A DNA stretch of 20,358 bases from a virus: the IMG/VR virus record IMGVR_UViG_3300010354_008521, positions 1-20,358 of that record; one strand, given 5' to 3'. A program made the position numbers and the translations under genes. Shown here one piece after another: positions 244-20,073 of the stretch. Every line of letters begins with the position of its first letter. Position 1 is the first letter of the stretch. A model generated the notes under the pieces. That model searched no databases. It had not been told where the DNA came from and worked only from the letters and a program-made list of their open reading frames with translations.

Positions 244-935
244 TAGAACCCGTAGAACAACCTTTTAACTGCAATCACTGCGGCAAGAGTTTTATGAAAG
301 AAAAAACTCTCTATGCTCACATGTGCGAGCCAAAGCGCAGAATCATGCAGAAATCAGAAAAACGTGTTCAAGCAGGATTTTTAGCTTTTAACAGATTTTG
401 GGTTATTTCTCAAGGTAGTAGAAAAGAAAAAACCTATGAAGAATTTTGCGATAGTCCTTACTATAATGCATTTGTAAAATTTGGTAGTTTTATTAACAAT
501 GTAAATCCATTGTATCCAGAAAAATTTATGGACTATGTGATAAAAAGTGGTGTTAAACTTGATCATTGGTGTAGGGATGAATTGTACGAAACGTACCTCT
601 ATGAAATTTTAAAGATTGAACCTGTAGAAGCAGCGGTACAAAGATCTTTACAAACCATGATGCAGTGGGCAGACGAAAATAACGCAAATTTTTCTCACTA
701 TTTTAACTATGCAACTTTAAATAGAGCAGTTTTTGATATCAGAAACGGTAATATCAGCGCCTGGATTGTGCTAAATTCAAGCACAGGCCAAACCATGCTT
801 AACAATATGAGCGACGAACAATTGGATATGATCAGCGCAGTAATAGATGTACAATTTTGGAAGAAAAAATTCAAAGAATTTCCCGCTGATGTAGCATTGG
901 TTAAGGAAATTTGCAAAGAAACAGGAATAAAATAA
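240..935 (+). CDS. C2HC zinc-finger protein of unknown function
   Basis: This encodes 231 residues starting at an ATGA overlap with the preceding gene. The N-terminus carries a single finger: C11 and C14 (CNHCGKSF), then H27 and C29 (AHMC), followed by the basic patch EPKRR. This is a C-x2-C...H-x-C zinc-binding arrangement and suggests nucleic-acid or protein binding. The remaining 200 residues are rich in aromatic residues and Asn, with no signal peptide or membrane segment and no enzyme motif I recognise. It ends by sharing one base with the cupin start (TAATG), so it is translationally coupled on both sides. What it does in an operon of heptose enzymes is unknown. The finger is clear; the function is not assigned. 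Confidence 0.75.
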   Translation: MIEPVEQPFNCNHCGKSFMKEKTLYAHMCEPKRRIMQKSEKRVQAGFLAFNRFWVISQGSRKEKTYEEFCDSPYYNAFVKFGSFINNVNPLYPEKFMDYVIKSGVKLDHWCRDELYETYLYEILKIEPVEAAVQRSLQTMMQWADENNANFSHYFNYATLNRAVFDIRNGNISAWIVLNSSTGQTMLNNMSDEQLDMISAVIDVQFWKKKFKEFPADVALVKEICKETGIK

Positions 936-1306
936 TGGTGCAGAAGAAAACACAATTACATGGGTTAGTACCTAAGGGTTGGGGTAGTGAGCTCATATGG
1001 TGCAGTAATGAAAAATACTGCGGAAAGATGATGAATTTTCGCAAAAACGCAAAATTTAGTATGCATTTTCATGCGGAAAAGGACGAAACTTGGCACGTTT
1101 TAAGCGGAAAATTTTTAGTGCGCTATATTGACACAAAGGATGCAAGTCAGCATGAAAAAGAATTAAATGCAGGTGATACTTGGCATAACCCTCCCCTGTT
1201 CCCGCATCAGGTAATTTGCTTAGAAGAGGGCACAATTATCGAAGTTAGCACTCCAGATAGCGTGGAAGACAACTATAGAGTCATGCCAGGAGACAGCCAA
1301 AAATGA
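935..1306 (+). CDS. Cupin-fold sugar-isomerase-like protein
   Basis: The ATG at 935 overlaps the preceding TAA by one base; an upstream TTG in frame is less likely. The 123-residue product begins with a GWGSELIW element typical of sugar-phosphate isomerase-like cupins. It then has the metal-binding cupin motif HFHAEKDETWHVLSG (H-x-H, then E, then H in WHV) and a second motif around NPPLFPHQV, which supplies another His. That supports a single-domain metal-binding cupin, probably acting on a sugar or nucleotide sugar. It lies directly before an ADP-heptose epimerase homologue, with start and stop codons overlapping (ATGA at 1303). Its role is therefore probably in the same sugar pathway, perhaps as isomerase or epimerase. 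The exact reaction cannot be read from the sequence. Confidence 0.8.
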   Translation: MVQKKTQLHGLVPKGWGSELIWCSNEKYCGKMMNFRKNAKFSMHFHAEKDETWHVLSGKFLVRYIDTKDASQHEKELNAGDTWHNPPLFPHQVICLEEGTIIEVSTPDSVEDNYRVMPGDSQK

Positions 1307-2082
1307 AAATTTTAATCACAGGACATAAAGGCTTTATTGGTAAAAACATGGTTGATGCTCTTAAAGATGAGCACGAATTGAAATTTTACGATTGGGGTGG
1401 AGAACTACCAAATTTACGCGATACAGATATATGTATACATCTAGGTGCTATTAGCAGCACCGTTGAAAACAATGTAGATCGAATCATGGAACAAAACTAT
1501 GATTTCAGTAAATGGCTAGTTGAAGAATGCTGGAGATTTAGGGTACATTTTCAATATGCGAGTTCTGCAAGTGTATACGGGTCTGGCACAAAATTCACAG
1601 AAGATTCTCCGGTAGATCCCAAATCTCCTTATGCATGGAGCAAATATCTGTTTGAAAGATATGTTGAAAAATATACATTAAAATGGGAAATGCCTGTACA
1701 GGGATTTAGATATTTCAATGTCTATGGTCCAAATGAAGGTCACAAAGGTAATCAAAGCAGTCCCTTTGAAAAATTTCGAAAACAAGCTAAAGAAACTGGC
1801 ATTATTGAAATATTTGAAGGATCACATGACTTCTATAGAGACTTTGTTCCTGTTAAAAAAGTTGTAGAAGTGCATAGAAAATTCTTTGGTGTCAATAAAA
1901 GTGGTGTATGGAACATTGGAACTGGCAAGCCTAGATCAATATTATCTATTGCCGAAGAAATTGCGGCAGAAACAGGGGCTATGATCAAATATATACCTGT
2001 TCCTAAAAATCTTGCTGTTCAATATCAAAGTTTCACCTGTGCAGATTTAACAAAGTTAAAATCTACCATACCCTATGACTAA
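1303..2082 (+). CDS. hldD: ADP-heptose 6-epimerase-like protein (HldD/RfaD family)
   Basis: This 259-residue protein is an extended short-chain dehydrogenase. The NAD(P)-binding GxxGxxG is G7-G10-G13 (GHKGFIG), the catalytic Tyr-Lys pair is Y110 and K114 (SPYAWSKYLFERYV), and the active-site serines lie in YASSASVYG. GFRYFNVYGPNEGHKG near residue 134 and the C-terminal QYQSFTCADLTKLK closely match the HldD subgroup, which interconverts ADP-D-glycero- and ADP-L-glycero-D-manno-heptose. That is more specific than a generic epimerase call. The enterobacterial enzyme is about 310 residues; this one stops soon after the ADLTKL element, so the C-terminal tail is missing. The HldC- and HldA-like genes follow with overlaps, giving the last three steps of ADP-heptose synthesis in one operon. 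Substrate specificity remains an inference from motif similarity. Confidence 0.87.
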   Translation: MKILITGHKGFIGKNMVDALKDEHELKFYDWGGELPNLRDTDICIHLGAISSTVENNVDRIMEQNYDFSKWLVEECWRFRVHFQYASSASVYGSGTKFTEDSPVDPKSPYAWSKYLFERYVEKYTLKWEMPVQGFRYFNVYGPNEGHKGNQSSPFEKFRKQAKETGIIEIFEGSHDFYRDFVPVKKVVEVHRKFFGVNKSGVWNIGTGKPRSILSIAEEIAAETGAMIKYIPVPKNLAVQYQSFTCADLTKLKSTIPYD

Positions 2083-2476
2083 AGTTATTGTCAATGGTAC
2101 ATTTGATATTTTACACGTTGGACATCTCAAAATGCTTCAGCAAGCTAGAAATATCAAAGACAGTTATGTTTTAGTATTGATAGACAGTGACGACAGGGTT
2201 AAAGAGTTAAAAGGCAATAACAGGCCCATAAACTCGCAAACAGAAAGAAAGACAATGCTTGAATCACTGCGCTATGTTGATGAAGTAAAAATATTTTCAA
2301 GTTCAGACGAACTTGTAAGTATGATAAAAGAATATGCTCCGGACGTAATGGTCAAGGGCAGCGATTACATTGGTAAACCCATAATTGGTGAACAGCACTG
2401 TAAAGAAATACAATATTGTAATTACTTAGATGGATATTCAACCACAAACAAAATTCAAAATATTATTAGTCGGTGA
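2075..2476 (+). CDS. hldC: Heptose-1-phosphate adenylyltransferase-like (HldC / RfaE domain II)
   Basis: This encodes 133 residues, overlapping the end of hldD by eight bases. The nucleotidyltransferase signature is near the N-terminus: GTFDILHVGHLKML, with HVGH at residues 14-17. KGNNRPINSQTERKTML, LRYVDEVKIF, APDVMVKGSDY and the C-terminal GYSTT follow in the order seen in the adenylyltransferase half of bifunctional HldE/RfaE. Related cytidylyltransferases such as TagD share the HxGH motif but not the GYSTT ending, so heptose-1-phosphate adenylyltransferase is the better call. In E. coli this domain is fused behind the kinase domain. Here it is a separate gene placed before the kinase, with a 47-base overlap into it. 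It is expected to be a soluble cytoplasmic enzyme. Confidence 0.85.
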   Translation: MTKVIVNGTFDILHVGHLKMLQQARNIKDSYVLVLIDSDDRVKELKGNNRPINSQTERKTMLESLRYVDEVKIFSSSDELVSMIKEYAPDVMVKGSDYIGKPIIGEQHCKEIQYCNYLDGYSTTNKIQNIISR

Positions 2477-3188
2477 TTATTGCACCGATGAATATATTAT
2501 TGGAACCTGTGACAGGTTAAGCCCTGAGGCACCTGTGCCTGTGATTAAAATAGTAGAAAGGTATACTGGCCCCGGTATGGCCGGAAATGTGAAAGCAAAC
2601 TTAGACAAGTTGGGTACAGACGTAGATTTTGTAACAGCAGAAGCAGTTATTACGAAAACAAGATATATTGATCAAAGATCTAGACAACATCTTCTAAGAG
2701 TAGATTTAGAACCAAAGATTTTCTCATGGAACCGTAAAGTTCCGCAAGCATTAGACAAGTACGACTGTGTTGTAATATCAGATTACAACAAAGGATTTTT
2801 ATCTTACGAAGATATCGAATATCTAATTCAAAATTATAAAGGTCCAATTTTTATTGATACTAAAAAGCCAAATCTATCTCGCTTCAACGGGGCCTTTATA
2901 AAGATCAACGAATTAGAAAATAGAAATAAGACATCTTCAAATTCCAATATGATTGTTACACTTGGTAGTCGTGGTGCTATGTATGGAAACAAAATATTTC
3001 CCACCAAATCCGTAGAAGTTGTAGATGTTTGCGGATGCGGAGATACATTTTTAGCAGCACTAAGTTACCAATACCTAGTGACAAAATCTATCAACGAAGC
3101 TATTATATTTGCTAATAACGCATCTAGCATTACCGTTCAGAAAGAAGGTAACTACGCTCCTACACTGACGGAAATTCAAAATGCCTGA
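2430..3188 (+). CDS. hldA: Heptose-7-phosphate kinase-like PfkB protein (HldA / RfaE domain I)
   Basis: This 252-residue PfkB-family kinase begins at an ATG inside the 3' end of hldC. The N-terminal VGDYCTDEYIIGTCDRLSPE then APVPV is characteristic of the RfaE kinase domain. GPGMAGNVKANLDKLG is the substrate-binding glycine region, HLLRVDLEPK matches the family's conserved L-R-x-D segment, and the ATP/anion-hole motif is VDVCGCGDTFLAA, with D205 as catalytic base (GCGD in place of the usual GAGD). The enzyme is shorter than the roughly 315-residue bacterial kinases. Segments are missing after DKLG and before the MIVTLGSRGAM strand, so it is a compact form. With HldC and HldD it would complete conversion of heptose-7-phosphate to ADP-heptose. 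GmhA and GmhB homologues are not seen here and may come from the host or elsewhere in the genome. Confidence 0.83.
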   Translation: MDIQPQTKFKILLVGDYCTDEYIIGTCDRLSPEAPVPVIKIVERYTGPGMAGNVKANLDKLGTDVDFVTAEAVITKTRYIDQRSRQHLLRVDLEPKIFSWNRKVPQALDKYDCVVISDYNKGFLSYEDIEYLIQNYKGPIFIDTKKPNLSRFNGAFIKINELENRNKTSSNSNMIVTLGSRGAMYGNKIFPTKSVEVVDVCGCGDTFLAALSYQYLVTKSINEAIIFANNASSITVQKEGNYAPTLTEIQNA

Positions 3189-3750
3189 TATTGATATTGA
3201 TTTTGCAGACAGAACAAAAATACTTGATATTATCAAACACGTTCCTGCTACCTTAGAAGATGGCAGGAAACATAATACAGGCGTTTATTGTCAGCAAATT
3301 CCTGTTAATCCAATAACAGGTCAAGCAAGCATAGATTATAATGTTGCTGAAGAGAGAGGATATTTTAAAATAGATTTTCTCAATGTTGGCATATATCAAG
3401 ATATAAAAGACGAAAATCATTTAAATAAGTTGTTGGAGACAGAACCGCTATGGCAGCTTTTACAACACGAAGAGTTTGTAAATCAATTATTTCATTTGAA
3501 CGGTCATGGGGATGTACTGAAAAAGACCTGCCCAACTTCCGTGGAACAATTAGGTGCAGTCCTAGCAATGATACGCCCGGCCAAACGCTATCTGATTGGG
3601 AAAGACTGGACGACGATCATGAGCGAAGTATGGATCAAGCCAGAGACTGGTGAATATTACTTTAAAAAAGCACACGCAATAAGTTATGCTATGGCTGTTA
3701 TAGTTCATATGAATTTGCTTTGCGAAAAAATAAGTTACGATTACTCATGA
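3181..3750 (+). CDS. Miniature DnaE-like (C-family DNA polymerase palm) protein
   Basis: This 189-residue protein opens with PDIDIDFADR, the palm motif of bacterial DNA polymerase III alpha; D3 and D5 correspond to the first two catalytic aspartates. RKHNTGVY (from residue 29) matches the conserved HAGGVV region. YFKIDFLNVG places D65 where the third palm aspartate sits. WQLLQHEEF, then PTSVEQLGAVLAMIRP, and YFKKAHAISYAM (from residue 160) match the later DnaE elements FQLES, the RPGP region and FNKSHAAAYA. The PHP exonuclease domain, most of the fingers, the beta-binding region and the OB fold are absent, against about 1,160 residues for E. coli DnaE. It overlaps hldA by eight bases. It could be an active minimal nucleotidyltransferase, a decoy or a degenerate remnant. 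The homology is clear to me; the function is open. Confidence 0.8.
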   Translation: MPDIDIDFADRTKILDIIKHVPATLEDGRKHNTGVYCQQIPVNPITGQASIDYNVAEERGYFKIDFLNVGIYQDIKDENHLNKLLETEPLWQLLQHEEFVNQLFHLNGHGDVLKKTCPTSVEQLGAVLAMIRPAKRYLIGKDWTTIMSEVWIKPETGEYYFKKAHAISYAMAVIVHMNLLCEKISYDYS

Positions 3751-4595
3751 TATCTAACTACAAAAGATACTTTGCATTTGGATGCAGTTATGTTAACTAT
3801 GGTTGGGGTACATTACCAGATTTAATTGCAGCTAATTTTGAAAAATATTATAATTTTGGTCAAGGTGGAGCATCAAATACTCTTATTTTGTCTAGACTAA
3901 TTGAAGCAAACGATACATTTCAATTTAATCCAGAGACAGACTTTATAACAGTGGGAATTACAGGATTTGGTAGATTTAGTATACTAGATCGAGATTATCC
4001 AAGATCATGGATTACTAGCGGCGATACTATTCCTAACGATCCTACCGTCGATATCGAAGATCATCAACCTGAACATGATTGGAGAGCAAAACTTTTTGCT
4101 AAAGAGTTAGATTCCTATGCTTGGTGTGTACAACGATCCCACGATGCAGTTCAATCAATTAGACATATTCTTCAAAACACCAAAGTAAACTACTGTATGT
4201 ACCCGTCAATAGATAATTTGTTATTCACTTATAGTTTTGACACGAAAAAAACGTATAAAAATTATTTTAATCTCACGCCTTTTTATCAAGAAATGGCACA
4301 GAAGATACACAATTTGTATGACGTAAAAGAAAGCCTTGACGAATTTGTTAGAATAAACAAATTGTTAAAAGGAGTCAAATATGATAACGGAGAATTTAAC
4401 GGTCACCCAAGTCCTCTCTGTCATTATCTATATCTACAAAAACATTTTCCTCTGTTCAATACAGAAAAAGCTTTGCAACGATTTAATTTTTTAGAACAGA
4501 TTTTTTGTAAAGAAAGTCACAGTGAGCAAGTAGATCAATTTACTAAAAAGTTTAGTTTGATATATAGAGACAAAAATATAAATTCCTATTATTAA
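3747..4595 (+). CDS. SGNH/GDSL-type hydrolase-like protein
   Basis: I chose the ATG at 3747 because it forms an ATGA overlap with the preceding stop; the 282-residue product then begins immediately before the fold's first strand. Block I is FAFGCSYVNYGW with S14 as likely nucleophile, block II is NFGQGGASN, a strand DFITVGITGFGRF follows, and the C-terminal block is NGHPSPLCHYLY with H220. In most SGNH enzymes the last block is DxxH or DGH; here the Asp position is Asn (N218), so activity is not certain. There is no signal peptide, so it is probably cytoplasmic. Proteins of this type often remove acyl groups from glycans, which would fit the sugar genes upstream. It ends tail-to-tail with a minus-strand gene, the stop codons interlocking. 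Confidence 0.72.
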   Translation: MISNYKRYFAFGCSYVNYGWGTLPDLIAANFEKYYNFGQGGASNTLILSRLIEANDTFQFNPETDFITVGITGFGRFSILDRDYPRSWITSGDTIPNDPTVDIEDHQPEHDWRAKLFAKELDSYAWCVQRSHDAVQSIRHILQNTKVNYCMYPSIDNLLFTYSFDTKKTYKNYFNLTPFYQEMAQKIHNLYDVKESLDEFVRINKLLKGVKYDNGEFNGHPSPLCHYLYLQKHFPLFNTEKALQRFNFLEQIFCKESHSEQVDQFTKKFSLIYRDKNINSYY

Positions 4596-4975
4596 CCTCG
4601 AACGGTCTTTACTTTTCTTATTAATTGTATCGATTTTCTCTTAATTCTTTTTTCAGCAATGCTGCTGAGATTTACTACGGGACCAAATACCAGCTTAACA
4701 TCTTTTGCGTTAAAGGTTTTTACAGCAAATTTGAAATTCTGCATTTCTTTTTTAAGAAATATATTAATGGGTATTTTTCTGTTACTTTCCCACCACCAAG
4801 TTTCCCCTAATTCTAAAAATATGCGTTTTTGATCCTGTGTCTTTAACTCGCTTATATCGTAGATTGTAGCGATTTGATTGTCAAAATTGATTATAATGCC
4901 TACATATTCCGAATCAGCTACTTTGATGCAGGATATAAATGGGTGGTCGTCTTGAAAGCTGATATTAGATGGCAT
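4592..4975 (-). CDS. Hypothetical protein, conserved-looking, 127 residues
   Basis: I start this at the ATG giving MPSNISFQDDHPFISC; the frame remains open further upstream, but that would run into the divergent late promoter. The product alternates beta-strand-like segments (YVGIIINFDNQIATIYDI) with charged stretches and ends very basic (EKRIKRKSIQLIRKVKTVRG). A WWWE motif lies in the middle. I see no signal peptide, membrane segment or family motif that I recognise. It is a single gene facing the SGNH gene, whose stop codon interlocks with its own (TTAA at 4592-4595), and it diverges from a virion protein gene 20 bases away. No clear ribosome-binding site or TAAATA box precedes it on its own strand. 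Confidence 0.6.
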   Translation of the reverse strand: MPSNISFQDDHPFISCIKVADSEYVGIIINFDNQIATIYDISELKTQDQKRIFLELGETWWWESNRKIPINIFLKKEMQNFKFAVKTFNAKDVKLVFGPVVNLSSIAEKRIKRKSIQLIRKVKTVRG

Positions 4976-4981
4976 TTTTAT

Positions 4982-4990
4982 CAATAAATA
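4982..4990 (+). promoter_or_regulatory. T4-type late promoter (CAATAAATA)
   Basis: AATAAATA resembles the T4 late -10 box TATAAATA. Exactly five bases separate its last A from the ATG at 4996. With T4 geometry, where the box ends at about -6, transcription would start on the A of the ATG. No Shine-Dalgarno sequence is present. Confidence 0.7.
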
Positions 4991-4995
4991 TACAT

Positions 4996-5835
4996 ATGCA
5001 AACTTTACCAATCTATTTATATCCAAATACCTATAGCGTTATACTAGATTTGGACAGCACTATCCTAGGAGTAAATCGTGTTATGTATCAAAATGATCTC
5101 AAATTACAGAGAGGTGTAAAAAACTCTGTAAAAATACAGTTTAAAAACAGTGATCAGAAAAGAATACGTGTTTATTCCACCGGAACTTATGTATTCAATA
5201 TGTTTGATATAGCCAGCAAACAGTTAGTAAGTCAAAAACCTTTACAGATAATAGATGACGGAGTTACAACAAGCACAAAAGGATTGGCGGTTTTAAATCT
5301 TATTGAATCAGATACTATTGGTTTATCAAAGTCTGCTTATAATTTTAGCATAACCTATCTTGATCCAAATGATAACACAGTAAACCCTGCTTATGCAAAT
5401 ACCTATTATGGTATGCTAGGCACAGCTTACTTAGGCAACGACGCATATCCAGAACTTAAAGATAGTCAGGATGTAATTTCATTCAATCAAGTGTTAAATG
5501 TAACAACTAATCTATACGAATGGAAAAGCGGCGACACTTATTCTTATCCAGAACTCACTACCAGCAATTCTGTGCATACAGCAGGAATTTATTTGACTGG
5601 ATACAGAGGTACATTAAAAATAGAAGGTACATTATCAAATCAACCAAACGATTCGAATTACTCTCTAATTAAAACACTAGATTACACAAACTTTACCGGA
5701 GTAGATTATTGTAATTTTTCTGGTGTTTATTCATATATTAGATTTATTTTTATACCTGCAGTCAGACCAGGAGATAGTACCAACGACGATCCTAGTTATT
5801 TCGGATCTTTTGACAAAATACTCTACAGAAGCTAA
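4996..5835 (+). CDS. Probable virion structural protein
   Basis: This 279-residue protein starts at the ATG five bases after a late-promoter box. It begins LPIYLYPNTYSVILDLD and is rich in Tyr, Ser, Thr and Asn, with a beta-strand pattern throughout (for example KIQFKNSDQKRIRVYSTGTYVF and TAGIYLTGYRGTLKIEG). There is no catalytic motif, signal peptide or membrane segment. This composition and the late promoter fit a baseplate, neck or tail-associated protein of a T4-like virion. I cannot match it to a specific T4 gene product. It is followed after only nine bases by the primase gene, an unusual pairing of a late structural gene with replication genes, so read-through transcription of primase at late times is plausible. 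Confidence 0.65.
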   Translation: MQTLPIYLYPNTYSVILDLDSTILGVNRVMYQNDLKLQRGVKNSVKIQFKNSDQKRIRVYSTGTYVFNMFDIASKQLVSQKPLQIIDDGVTTSTKGLAVLNLIESDTIGLSKSAYNFSITYLDPNDNTVNPAYANTYYGMLGTAYLGNDAYPELKDSQDVISFNQVLNVTTNLYEWKSGDTYSYPELTTSNSVHTAGIYLTGYRGTLKIEGTLSNQPNDSNYSLIKTLDYTNFTGVDYCNFSGVYSYIRFIFIPAVRPGDSTNDDPSYFGSFDKILYRS

Positions 5836-5844
5836 ACTTATAGA

Positions 5845-6843
5845 GTGAACGAAATTCAATCTGCTATCCTTAGTTTACTGCCAGCCAAGCGTAAATCTAC
5901 TCCCAGCGGCTGGACCAGTTTTAATGCTGTGTGTTGTCATCATAACGGCGAATCAGCAGATAACAGACAACGTGGCGGGGTACTTGTAAATTCTGAGGGC
6001 GGTATCCAATACCATTGTTTTAATTGTAATTTTAAAGCAGGGTGGTCGCCCGGTAAACTACTATCATCCAATACTAAAAAATTACTGCATTGGCTGGGAT
6101 TAGGCCAAACTGACATAAGCAAACTAGGGTTGGTTGCACTAAGATTGAAAGATGATCAACCAATTAGTAAAAAAGAACTGAGATTTGAACTTGAAGAAAG
6201 ATCACTCCCTGACAATACCCAAAGCATTGATCGATGGCTAGAAGAAGGGTGTAACGATCCTGATCTTGTTGCGGTTATTGATTATGTAGTTAACCAGCGT
6301 CAAATGAAATGGGATTGGTATAAATGGCACTGGAGTGCAACACCAGGATATAGAGATAGAGTAATTATTCCGTTCTATCAAGACGCAAAAATTGTAGGAT
6401 ATACAGGTAGAAAAATTGGCAGTGGTCGTCCAAAATATTTGGCAGATACACAGCCGGGCTACGTTTTCAATTTAGATCAGCAAAGTGATGAGAGAGAATA
6501 TATAATTGCGGTTGAAGGACAGTTTGACGCCATTGCTATAGATGGCGTTGCTTTCATGCATAATGAGCCAAATGATATTCAGTGTGCAAGAATAATTGCT
6601 TTAAACAAAGAAATAATTGTCGTTCCCGATAGAGATCGCGCCGGAGCCAAAATATTAAATGCAGCAATAGAGCATGGTTGGAGTGCAAGCATGCCGCCGT
6701 GGGAAGATGACATAAAGGATGTTGCGGATGCAGTAAAACGGTACGGCAGACTTTACGTGCTAACTACTATATTGCATTATAAAATTTCAGGTGATTTAAA
6801 ATTGAATCTATTAAAGAAAAAGTTGGAATATTTAAATGAGTAA
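5845..6843 (+). CDS. DNA primase, T4 gp61-like (DnaG-type)
   Basis: This encodes 332 residues starting at a GTG (MNEIQSAILSLLP) nine bases after the previous stop. An N-terminal zinc-binding segment uses CCHH around residues 30-33 and CFNC at 58-61. The toprim catalytic domain is clear: E224 in AVEGQFDAIAID and D262/D264 in VVPDRDRAG. Between them lies the core strand region DRVIIPFYQDAKIVGYTGR. T4 gp61 is of similar length, 342 residues. The protein would synthesise RNA primers for lagging-strand synthesis together with the helicase encoded immediately downstream, whose start overlaps this gene's end by eight bases. The annotation as primase is secure from the toprim plus zinc-finger arrangement; assignment to the gp61 group rests on length and the neighbouring gp41-like gene. 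Confidence 0.92.
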   Translation: MNEIQSAILSLLPAKRKSTPSGWTSFNAVCCHHNGESADNRQRGGVLVNSEGGIQYHCFNCNFKAGWSPGKLLSSNTKKLLHWLGLGQTDISKLGLVALRLKDDQPISKKELRFELEERSLPDNTQSIDRWLEEGCNDPDLVAVIDYVVNQRQMKWDWYKWHWSATPGYRDRVIIPFYQDAKIVGYTGRKIGSGRPKYLADTQPGYVFNLDQQSDEREYIIAVEGQFDAIAIDGVAFMHNEPNDIQCARIIALNKEIIVVPDRDRAGAKILNAAIEHGWSASMPPWEDDIKDVADAVKRYGRLYVLTTILHYKISGDLKLNLLKKKLEYLNE

Positions 6844-8278
6844 AACTAATTACAATTACGATATGCAGAAATTGTATCTAGAAATGTTTCTCAGCGATGC
6901 AGAAACGTTTACTCGTTGTCAAAATATTTTTAGTCCGCAAAATTTTGATCAGAAACTGCAGGATACAGCAGAATTCATCACCACTTATGTGGACAAATAC
7001 AAGACTATGCCTGAAGCCAATATAGTGAATACTGCTTGCAGCGTTGAACTTAATCCTGTTGCACTACCCAAGGAACATTATAATTGGCTGTTGAATGAGT
7101 TTGAAAATTTCAGTAGGCATAAAAGCCTTGAGAGAGCAATTCTTAAAAGTGCAGACTTGCTGGAAAAAGGAGATTATGGTCCTGTAGAAAAGCTTGTTAA
7201 GGATGCTATTCAAATTAGCCTAAACAAGAACATGGGCACAGACTATTGGGAAGATCCTAGAGCAAGATTAATGAAACTCAAGGAGAATAACGGTCAGGTC
7301 AGCACAGGTTGGCCCACTGTTGATAAAAAACTCTATGGCGGTTTCAAACGCGGTGAACTCAATATCTGGTGTGCTGGATCAGGTGGTGGTAAGTCTCTAT
7401 TTCTTGCCAATCAAGGACTTAACTTTGCACTGGCTGGACTGAATGTAATTTATTTTACATTTGAGCTAAGTGAAGAACTAGTCAGTATGAGACTAGACAG
7501 TATGGTCACTGGCACTGCTACTAGAGAAATTTTTAAGAATCTTGACGATGTTGAAATGAAAGTTAAGATGATGCGTAAGAAAGCCAGTGAGATACAGGTT
7601 GTATACATGCCCTCAGGCAAAAACTGCAACGACCTTAGGTCCTATCTAAAAGAATATCAAGTTAAATTTGGCAAAAAGCCTGACGTAATTCTAGTAGACT
7701 ATTTAGATCTAATGATGCCTTTGAGTATCAAAGTAAGTCCCAGCGATCTGTATGTCAAAGACAAATATGTGTCAGAAGAACTACGAAATCTAGCAATGGA
7801 AACGCAATGTGTAGTTGTGACTGCAAGTCAGTTGAATAGAGCAGCAGTTGAAGAAATTGAATTCGATCACAGTCATATTTCAGGTGGATTGAGTAAGATT
7901 CAGACTGCTGACAACGTAATTGGCATTTTTACAAGTCGTGCTATGCGTGAACGTGGTCGTTATCAAATTCAGTTTATGAAAACACGTAGCAGCAGCGGTG
8001 TGGGACAAAAAGTTGAATTAGACTTTAACATAGACACACTGCGTATCACAGATCCTGGTGAGGAAGAAGCTGAAGCAAATCTAAGTCAAATGCGTTCAAA
8101 TTCTAATAATAATATCATGCAAGGCTTACGTAGAACCAGTGTAGTGAGCAACACAGCTACCGAGCAAGAATCTGTAGATCCCACTCAGGGAGTGTCTATA
8201 AACAAACTAAAATCTAAAAATCAATCAGCGCCGCTGATTAGATCCTTCTTAACTGATATTAGTCCAGAAAAAGATTAA
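6836..8278 (+). CDS. Replicative DNA helicase, T4 gp41-like (DnaB family)
   Basis: This 480-residue protein matches the size of T4 gp41 (475). An N-terminal helical domain of about 130 residues is followed by the RecA-like motor: STGWPTVDKKLYGGFKRGEL leads into Walker A, AGSGGGKS (residues 180-187). Walker B is VILVDYLDLM near residue 283, the glutamine-containing motif is VVVTASQLNR, and the arginine/loop element is KTRSSSGVG. These are the DnaB-family motifs in their normal order. It would form the hexameric 5'-3' helicase at the fork and recruit the primase encoded just upstream. The tail after about residue 410 is polar and low in complexity. The gene ends tail-to-tail with the YqgE-like gene, the two stop codons sharing TTAA at 8275-8278. 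Confidence 0.94.
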   Translation: MSKTNYNYDMQKLYLEMFLSDAETFTRCQNIFSPQNFDQKLQDTAEFITTYVDKYKTMPEANIVNTACSVELNPVALPKEHYNWLLNEFENFSRHKSLERAILKSADLLEKGDYGPVEKLVKDAIQISLNKNMGTDYWEDPRARLMKLKENNGQVSTGWPTVDKKLYGGFKRGELNIWCAGSGGGKSLFLANQGLNFALAGLNVIYFTFELSEELVSMRLDSMVTGTATREIFKNLDDVEMKVKMMRKKASEIQVVYMPSGKNCNDLRSYLKEYQVKFGKKPDVILVDYLDLMMPLSIKVSPSDLYVKDKYVSEELRNLAMETQCVVVTASQLNRAAVEEIEFDHSHISGGLSKIQTADNVIGIFTSRAMRERGRYQIQFMKTRSSSGVGQKVELDFNIDTLRITDPGEEEAEANLSQMRSNSNNNIMQGLRRTSVVSNTATEQESVDPTQGVSINKLKSKNQSAPLIRSFLTDISPEKD

Positions 8279-18444: not shown

Positions 18445-18451
18445 TATTTAC
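18445..18451 (-). promoter_or_regulatory. Late promoter (GTAAATA) overlapping the ATPase stop codon
   Basis: The TAA stop of the AAA+ gene forms the first bases of TAAATA. The box ends five bases before the ATG at 18439. This would allow late expression of the membrane protein independent of the early ATPase promoter. Confidence 0.6.
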
Positions 18452-19296
18452 TTGCGACGCATACAGGTAGTACGCGCCATGCTCTGCCACCCGTCCGGAA
18501 AGCTCTTGCGCAGGTCCGCTATCTTCAGTACCATGCGTAGACTTAGTTCACGGATACGATCCGCATTGTGCTCCACATAGTCAATGATCTCCTGCTTCTC
18601 TGACTGTTCGAACTCATACTCCTGCAGCATGCCGTCATTAACGATCTGACGGATACGCAGCAGTTTTTCGCGTGTGGTATCCATCTGCAGATCAATGTAG
18701 TGACAGCGGCTTTCCAGTGCGTCCAAATGATCCCTGAGCTTCTTGCTGCGCACATGCTCAAACTTGATGTTGGTAATGAACACAGCGCCTGCTGAGAACT
18801 CAAAGCGCGGCGGTATGCCCTCAGTACGCAGCAAGCGGCTGTCCGTGTTCCAGCTGATCCAACGGCGCTTGCTTGAATCCAACGCTGCTTTGAGGATGTT
18901 CAAGCTGAGGTCTTCCATAAGCACACTATCACAGTCGTCGAACACTATGACATTGCCTCGGTCCTTGTACTCAAACAGTTTGGCGTAGAGTCCCAAGGCA
19001 CTCATTGCGCCTTTCACAATCTCATACTTGGGCTTGCGTTGTGCTATGGTGTTGAACAGATCGTCCTTTTGCAGTACGTCCTCTACGCCGTAGCTCTTGC
19101 CTACGCCCGGGGGACCACTGACGATAAGTGCTCGCACATCACCCTTCTTTACAGCGCGGGTCATGTCCGTGAGAATCCGGAAACGTTCCCGCAATCGTTC
19201 CACAATTGCTTCGTCCGTTTCACCTGCTACTTCCTGCTCACGTTGGCGAATTGCATCCGTGTCAAATTCAATGATTGTTGCTTTTTCTTTGGCCAT
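18448..19296 (-). CDS. AAA+ ATPase
   Basis: Two in-frame ATGs are possible (19302 and 19296). The second is chosen because AAAGGAG ends seven bases before it, while only one base separates it from the first. The 282-residue product has Walker A GPPGVGKS at residues 61-68, Walker B VIVFDDCDS (D120, D121), a sensor-1-like VFITNIKF with Asn, and arginines in the second half (LRDHLDALESRC) in positions for an arginine finger. These are AAA+ features. There is no DNA-binding domain or protease domain, and no signal peptide. Similar stand-alone AAA+ proteins occur in T4-like phages, with unknown roles. It is driven by a perfect sigma70 promoter, so early expression by the unmodified host polymerase is expected. 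Confidence 0.88.
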   Translation of the reverse strand: MAKEKATIIEFDTDAIRQREQEVAGETDEAIVERLRERFRILTDMTRAVKKGDVRALIVSGPPGVGKSYGVEDVLQKDDLFNTIAQRKPKYEIVKGAMSALGLYAKLFEYKDRGNVIVFDDCDSVLMEDLSLNILKAALDSSKRRWISWNTDSRLLRTEGIPPRFEFSAGAVFITNIKFEHVRSKKLRDHLDALESRCHYIDLQMDTTREKLLRIRQIVNDGMLQEYEFEQSEKQEIIDYVEHNADRIRELSLRMVLKIADLRKSFPDGWQSMARTTCMRRK

Positions 19297-19321
19297 TGCC
19301 ATGCTCCTTTATGTTGTAGAT

Positions 19322-19997: not shown

Positions 19998-20073
19998 TGG
20001 TGGGTCCTGTGAGATTCGAACTCACGACCAACAGATTAAAAGTCTGCTGCTCTACCGACTGAGCTAAGGACCC
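19998..20073 (-). tRNA. tRNA-Lys (UUU anticodon), CCA encoded
   Basis: The minus strand reads GGGTCCTTAGCTCAGTCGGT at the 5' end, with the anticodon loop CTTTTAA (UUU) and the T-arm GTTCGAATC. The seven-base acceptor stem GGGTCCT pairs with AGGACCC, and the discriminator A is followed by a genomic CCA (20000-19998). All arms are intact, so it should be functional. It would decode AAA and AAG lysine codons, which the AT-rich left region uses heavily. Its first ten bases overlap the end of the upstream CDS. Confidence 0.97.

Follow-up and report, generated by a model that had tools for sequence, protein, structure and literature searches.

A split minimal form of the DNA polymerase III (Pol III) alpha subunit was described in 2021 for the group 2.2 jumbo phages by Iyer, Burroughs and Aravind (PMC7824862), who suggested that it works together with the family B polymerase (PolB) or in repair and that it is of an ancestral form, offering it as a model for the Pol III module in its ancestral state. 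By contrast, the full-length Pol III alpha enzymes of group 3.2 jumbo phages (e.g., phage G; PHROG 405) carry an N-terminal PHP domain and are host-like in sequence and architecture (PMC7824862). Genome papers on the phages CBB and Atu_ph07 also noted Pol III alpha, the one in CBB being truncated (172 aa). Our search of the open-access literature, which did not cover subscription papers, found no published experimental work on the proteins of the split enzyme.

Here, we analyzed a 20,358-nucleotide stretch of viral DNA (the window; IMG/VR record IMGVR_UViG_3300010354_008521) that carries a gene of this type at 3181-3750. Compared with the group 2.2 split enzyme, no difference of substance was seen, the window protein being a metagenomic example with its N-terminal piece off the fragment. 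The split polymerase is already known, and the window protein adds a new sequence to that published kind and not a new kind of system. What is added here is the split point at residue level, the complementary mapping of the pieces on solved chains, counts of their co-occurrence, the equivalence to H760 of E. coli DnaE, and an estimate of selection. A C-family polymerase reduced to about 360 residues on two chains would mark out the minimal catalytic core of the bacterial replicase, and it would raise the question of why phages with PolB keep one.

The 189-residue ORF and its correspondence to DnaE

The ORF at 3181-3750 (+) runs from an ATG to a TGA and encodes 189 aa. Its ATG falls within the final codons of a heptose-kinase-like gene (2430-3188), and its 3' end shares 31 bases with the next ORF if that ORF starts at the TTG at 3720. 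A sequence-only reading of this DNA had described a 189-residue protein with all three catalytic aspartates, and the coordinates, the start and stop, and D3, D5, and D65 were all found to be as described. The features of the ORF are as follows.

3181..3750, + strand: putative C-terminal subunit of a split minimal DNA polymerase III alpha (PHROG 11778), 189 aa; from PHROG and profile matches, alignment, and model
3187..3195, + strand: D3-I4-D5 in PDIDIDF, catalytic aspartates 1 and 2 (E. coli DnaE D401 and D403); from a 45-sequence alignment, with DxDxD in 88/88
3271..3288, + strand: HNTGVY motif (E. coli DnaE KHAGGVV 510-516, or HAGGVV 511-516); H31 and G34 invariant
3367..3381, + strand: K63-I-D65-F-L in KIDFLN, with the third catalytic aspartate (E. 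coli K553 and D555); invariant
3487..3579, + strand: reduced fingers, from LFHLNG (FQLES-like) to IRP; I131, R132, and P133 invariant, aligned by hhalign to E. coli DnaE 529-642
3661..3690, + strand: FKKAHAISYA with H165 (E. coli DnaE H760, the proposed steric gate); H165 invariant

Each motif named in the sequence-only reading could be matched to an E. coli DnaE counterpart, PDIDIDF to MPDFDVDF (399-406), KIDFLN to KFDFLG (553-558), LFHLNG to FQLES (609-613), IRP to FRPGP (638-642), and FKKAHAISYA to NKSHSAAYA (757-765), and the order of the motifs is the same in both proteins. H760, which lies in the last of these motifs, has been proposed as a steric gate and is said to be invariant across Pol III alpha proteins (PMC8485763).

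A Pfam scan of the ORF returned nothing at E ≤ 1, and the family assignment therefore rests on PHROGs and profiles. PHROG 11778, annotated as "DNA polymerase," matched the protein with an E-value of 7.6e-62 (residues 3-183, profile positions 8-194 of 197), while PHROG 405 (full-length DNA polymerase) gave a weak match (E 2.5e-4). When the PDB was searched, the single sequence reached only an E-value of 0.67 and the profile 3.3e-4. Considering the two PHROG matches together with at least 555 relatives in IMG/VR and 63 phage records matched by tblastn (a few of those listed being shorter, apparently partial sequences), the likeness to DnaE is, as judged by sequence comparison, not due to chance. 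The origin from a C-family (DnaE) palm and fingers, also proposed earlier, agrees with these matches and with the motif correspondence. The window protein has a full-length profile match like other members of PHROG 11778 (RaK2 ORF124, GAP32_282, and Atu_ph07 gp074) and shares its neighbors with those of RaK2 and GAP32, and it is 36-51% identical to the cultured-phage members in the alignment.

With bacterial DnaE (2HNH, 5LEW, and 2HPI), the window protein shares the motif order, the equivalents of D401, D403, D555, K553, and H760, and a predicted fold that lies on DnaE 401-784, and with the full-length phage enzymes of PHROG 405 it shares the C-family catalytic core. Unlike bacterial DnaE, it has only 189 aa and lacks the N-terminal palm as well as most of the thumb and fingers. 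Mapped on DnaE, it begins at the equivalent of residue 399 and has little of what lies from the PDFDVDF region to 509 (the thumb region) or from about 643 to 750 (the fingers). The PHP, OB-fold, and clamp-binding regions are missing, in agreement with the losses listed in the sequence-only reading. A full-length bacterial DnaE or PolC unites a PHP domain, a complete palm, a thumb, fingers, a clamp motif, and an OB fold in a single chain, and the window protein does not have this set.

The window protein and its relatives (C-pieces) are uniform in length (185-232 aa stop-to-stop). Residues D3, D5, D7, H31, G34, K63, D65, I131, R132, P133, and H165, among others, are invariant in 45 aligned C-pieces, and both DxDxD and KxDxL are kept in all 88 examined, so the aspartates do not vary freely across relatives. 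The dN/dS ratio had a median of about 0.11 and a maximum of 0.17 (49 unsaturated pairs). This conservation indicates that the C-piece is a functional protein under strong purifying selection, and the earlier argument against simple decay held.

A separate gene for the N-terminal palm in related genomes

PF07733 (Pol III alpha) matched a separate small ORF in 11 of 12 related phage genomes, the twelfth being a partial contig of 164 kb. Counted from the ATG, these N-piece ORFs encode about 166-182 aa. The nucleotide-binding motif GxGRGS was found in all N-pieces (86/86, IMG/VR relatives included), which close with a conserved ..EF[LF] motif at the stop or no more than 2 residues from it. The N-piece can be aligned with E. 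coli DnaE as far as residue 393, after which DnaE runs on as PERVS-MPDFDVDF, the latter from 399; by this alignment, the split point falls between residues 393 and 399 of E. coli DnaE, a few residues ahead of the first catalytic aspartate. The first reading of the protein as a lone palm remnant is therefore not supported, since the related genomes encode the missing N-terminal palm with GxGRGS in a gene of its own. The 172-aa Pol III alpha of CBB is probably an N-piece too, since the N-piece search matches a CBB gene annotated as DNA polymerase III alpha. A split intein was considered and rejected, as the polymerase motif borders lie no more than a few residues from where the pieces start and stop, with no room left for intein sequence.

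The two pieces occur together in 59 of the 60 listed phage records with a C-piece, the exception (PP728206) being a 109-kb partial-length record. The records inspected are those of jumbo phages (Atu_ph07, Phosso, Cassandra, RaK2, GAP32, Vibrio 2.275.O, SCTP-2, and XacN1). The distance between the two genes is 15 kb in XacN1, 30-44 kb in Vibrio 2.275.O, RaK2, GAP32, and Cassandra, 116 kb in SCTP-2, and 183 and 224 kb (shorter arc) in Atu_ph07 and Phosso, respectively. Among 185 loci, each with 6-10 kb flanks, there was neither a fused gene nor a locus holding both pieces, and a search of the related genomes for the fingers family PF17657 gave no extra piece, both matches lying within the C-piece itself. 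From these relatives, we infer that the phage of the window also has an N-subunit gene, outside the 20-kb fragment.

AlphaFold2 models were made of the window protein (pLDDT 86.1) and of the N-piece from an IMG/VR relative, L137 (pLDDT 93.7), and compared with solved structures by VIA-align. On the 2HNH chain, the N-model was placed on 271..393 (Z 10.4, rmsd 2.9, 100 aligned) and the window-protein model on 401..784 (Z 7.8, rmsd 6.6, 178 aligned); on 5LEW, the corresponding stretches were 303..413 (Z 12.0, rmsd 2.3, 96 aligned) and 419..811 (Z 7.8, rmsd 6.0, 185 aligned). Since the two models lie on successive stretches of the same solved chains, the pieces cover adjoining parts of one polymerase. 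The predicted fold of the window protein matches Pol III alpha, as the earlier reading had anticipated: the top 13 rows were all C-family (Z 4.8-7.8), and the next, unrelated, had a Z of 2.8. With a Z below 8 and a high rmsd, this model supports rather than proves the C-family assignment, which is carried by the sequence evidence. Such values would perhaps be unsurprising where a portion of the palm is modeled apart from the remainder. Foldseek E-values were weak for both models (best 8e-3 and 1.3e-2). Residues 1-60 of the N-piece (L137 9995-10174) were confidently predicted and hardly reached by the solved-structure rows that VIA-align listed.

Gene neighborhood and replication genes of the relatives

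Downstream of the split-polymerase gene, the window contains the following genes, given as context only.

4592..5026, - strand: conserved convergent neighbor, phrog_11637, syntenic with RaK2 ORF125w
4969..5835, + strand: virion structural protein-like neighbor (phrog_14467)
5845..6843, + strand: DnaG/gp61-type primase
6836..8278, + strand: DnaB/gp41-type replicative helicase

A similar order, with the C-piece followed by a short convergent gene, one or two genes, the primase, and the helicase, is found in the annotations of Phosso, Cassandra, RaK2, GAP32, and the Vibrio phage, and the correspondence to RaK2 was checked pairwise; in XacN1, the order around the C-piece differs. PolB was present in 12/12 related genomes, which bears out the remark in the sequence-only reading that a C-family protein is unexpected where a B-family polymerase is used. 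The DnaN clamp domain PF02767 was found in none of these 12 genomes. The DnaQ-type exonuclease family PF00929 was found in 6/12 only and is, by that test, not an obligatory partner; RaK2 (L084 1-542) and GAP32 (L085 1-568) have a DnaQ-like exonuclease gene a few genes upstream of the C-piece.

On its other side, the split-polymerase gene adjoins a heptose-type sugar cluster (911-3188) with a cupin, an HldD-like epimerase, and HldE-like functions split into two genes, an adenylyltransferase (2075-2476) and a PfkB kinase (2430-3188), which match only parts of the bacterial profiles. A functional link to these genes was rejected, the sugar genes not being beside the C-piece in annotated jumbo phages. 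They look incidental, since the conserved neighbors are phrog_11637, the virion protein, the primase, and the DnaB/gp41 helicase.

Between the split-polymerase gene and phrog_11637, a 291-aa ORF (3720-4595) had no Pfam match and PHROG E-values of 0.19 or worse, and there is no annotated gene at the counterpart site in RaK2 or GAP32. At 240-935, the window encodes a phrog_11058 protein whose N-terminal part has a motif resembling a C2H2 zinc finger (E 0.0035, short of the Pfam cut-off). An AAA+-like protein (18448-19302, - strand; phrog_1250) has weak clamp-loader similarity, and a tRNA-Lys(TTT) lies near its gene, at 19998-20073. The G+C content climbs from about 35% in the first 6 kb to 50% in the last 2 kb, which could be due to the genes present, to recently acquired DNA, or to a chimeric contig.

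The proposed two-protein polymerase and its alternatives

We consider it quite probable that the two proteins come together to form a single C-family active site and serve as an accessory polymerase beside PolB. A T4-related jumbo phage would thus have a miniature C-family polymerase in two parts: the product of 3181-3750 would be the C-terminal subunit, binding metal and template, and another gene, located elsewhere in the genome, would provide the N-terminal palm subunit, whose GxGRGS loop would bind the triphosphate. Joined non-covalently, the subunits would form one palm with reduced fingers, in which the dNTP would be held between the loop of the N-subunit and D3, D5, D65, and H165 of the C-subunit, and the assembled pair would add nucleotides to a primer. 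As neither piece shows a PHP domain, an OB fold, or a clamp motif, and there is little thumb, the enzyme would probably be of low processivity and may work beside the phage PolB, e.g., in primer extension, gap filling, or repair.

The computed support for the pairing consists of homology, complementary mapping, co-occurrence, invariant active-site residues, and purifying selection; the conserved replication-gene neighborhood and the independent publication of the split were also counted in favor of a two-protein polymerase. Counted against it were the weak Foldseek E-values, the high rmsd of the C-model, the lack of a fused gene among the 185 loci, and the PolB in every related genome, with which a second polymerase is not obviously needed. 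More speculatively, the pair (~170 + ~190 aa) might be the smallest C-family polymerase known, able to work with hardly any thumb and in the absence of PHP, OB domain, and clamp motif, and might have a dedicated job beside PolB, such as RNA-primer extension before hand-over or gap repair. In Bacillus subtilis, DnaE extends RNA primers before hand-over to PolC.

The same genes could also be read as a regulator that does not polymerize, with the two pieces assembling into a nucleotide- or primer-terminus-binding replisome subunit whose catalysis is lost or vestigial. The absence of the thumb, most of the fingers, and the clamp motif from the C-piece, the PolB in all 12 related genomes, and the adjoining replisome genes would all fit such a subunit, yet the invariant metal-binding aspartates, the H760-equivalent histidine, and GxGRGS are not obviously required for binding only, and we regard this reading as unlikely. 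Far less probable is an inhibitor or decoy of host Pol III built from a DnaE fragment, a role for which the sequence-only reading had proposed an inhibitor. The C-piece is DnaE-like and phage-encoded, as this would predict, but dominant-negative action would presumably need no catalytic residues, the clamp- and tau-binding regions, possible means of competing, are missing from the sequence, and an N-piece partner co-occurs. Just as improbable is a stand-alone minimal nucleotidyltransferase working without the N-piece, one of the roles offered by the sequence-only reading: although the three catalytic aspartates are all in the C-piece, the triphosphate-binding GxGRGS element sits in the N-piece, the two co-occur in nearly all listed records, and the published unit is a two-protein split polymerase (PMC7824862). 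That the gene is a decaying fragment of a captured host dnaE, as its 189 aa against the 1160 aa of DnaE might suggest, is effectively refuted by the large number of relatives, their uniform length, the low dN/dS, and the invariant active site.
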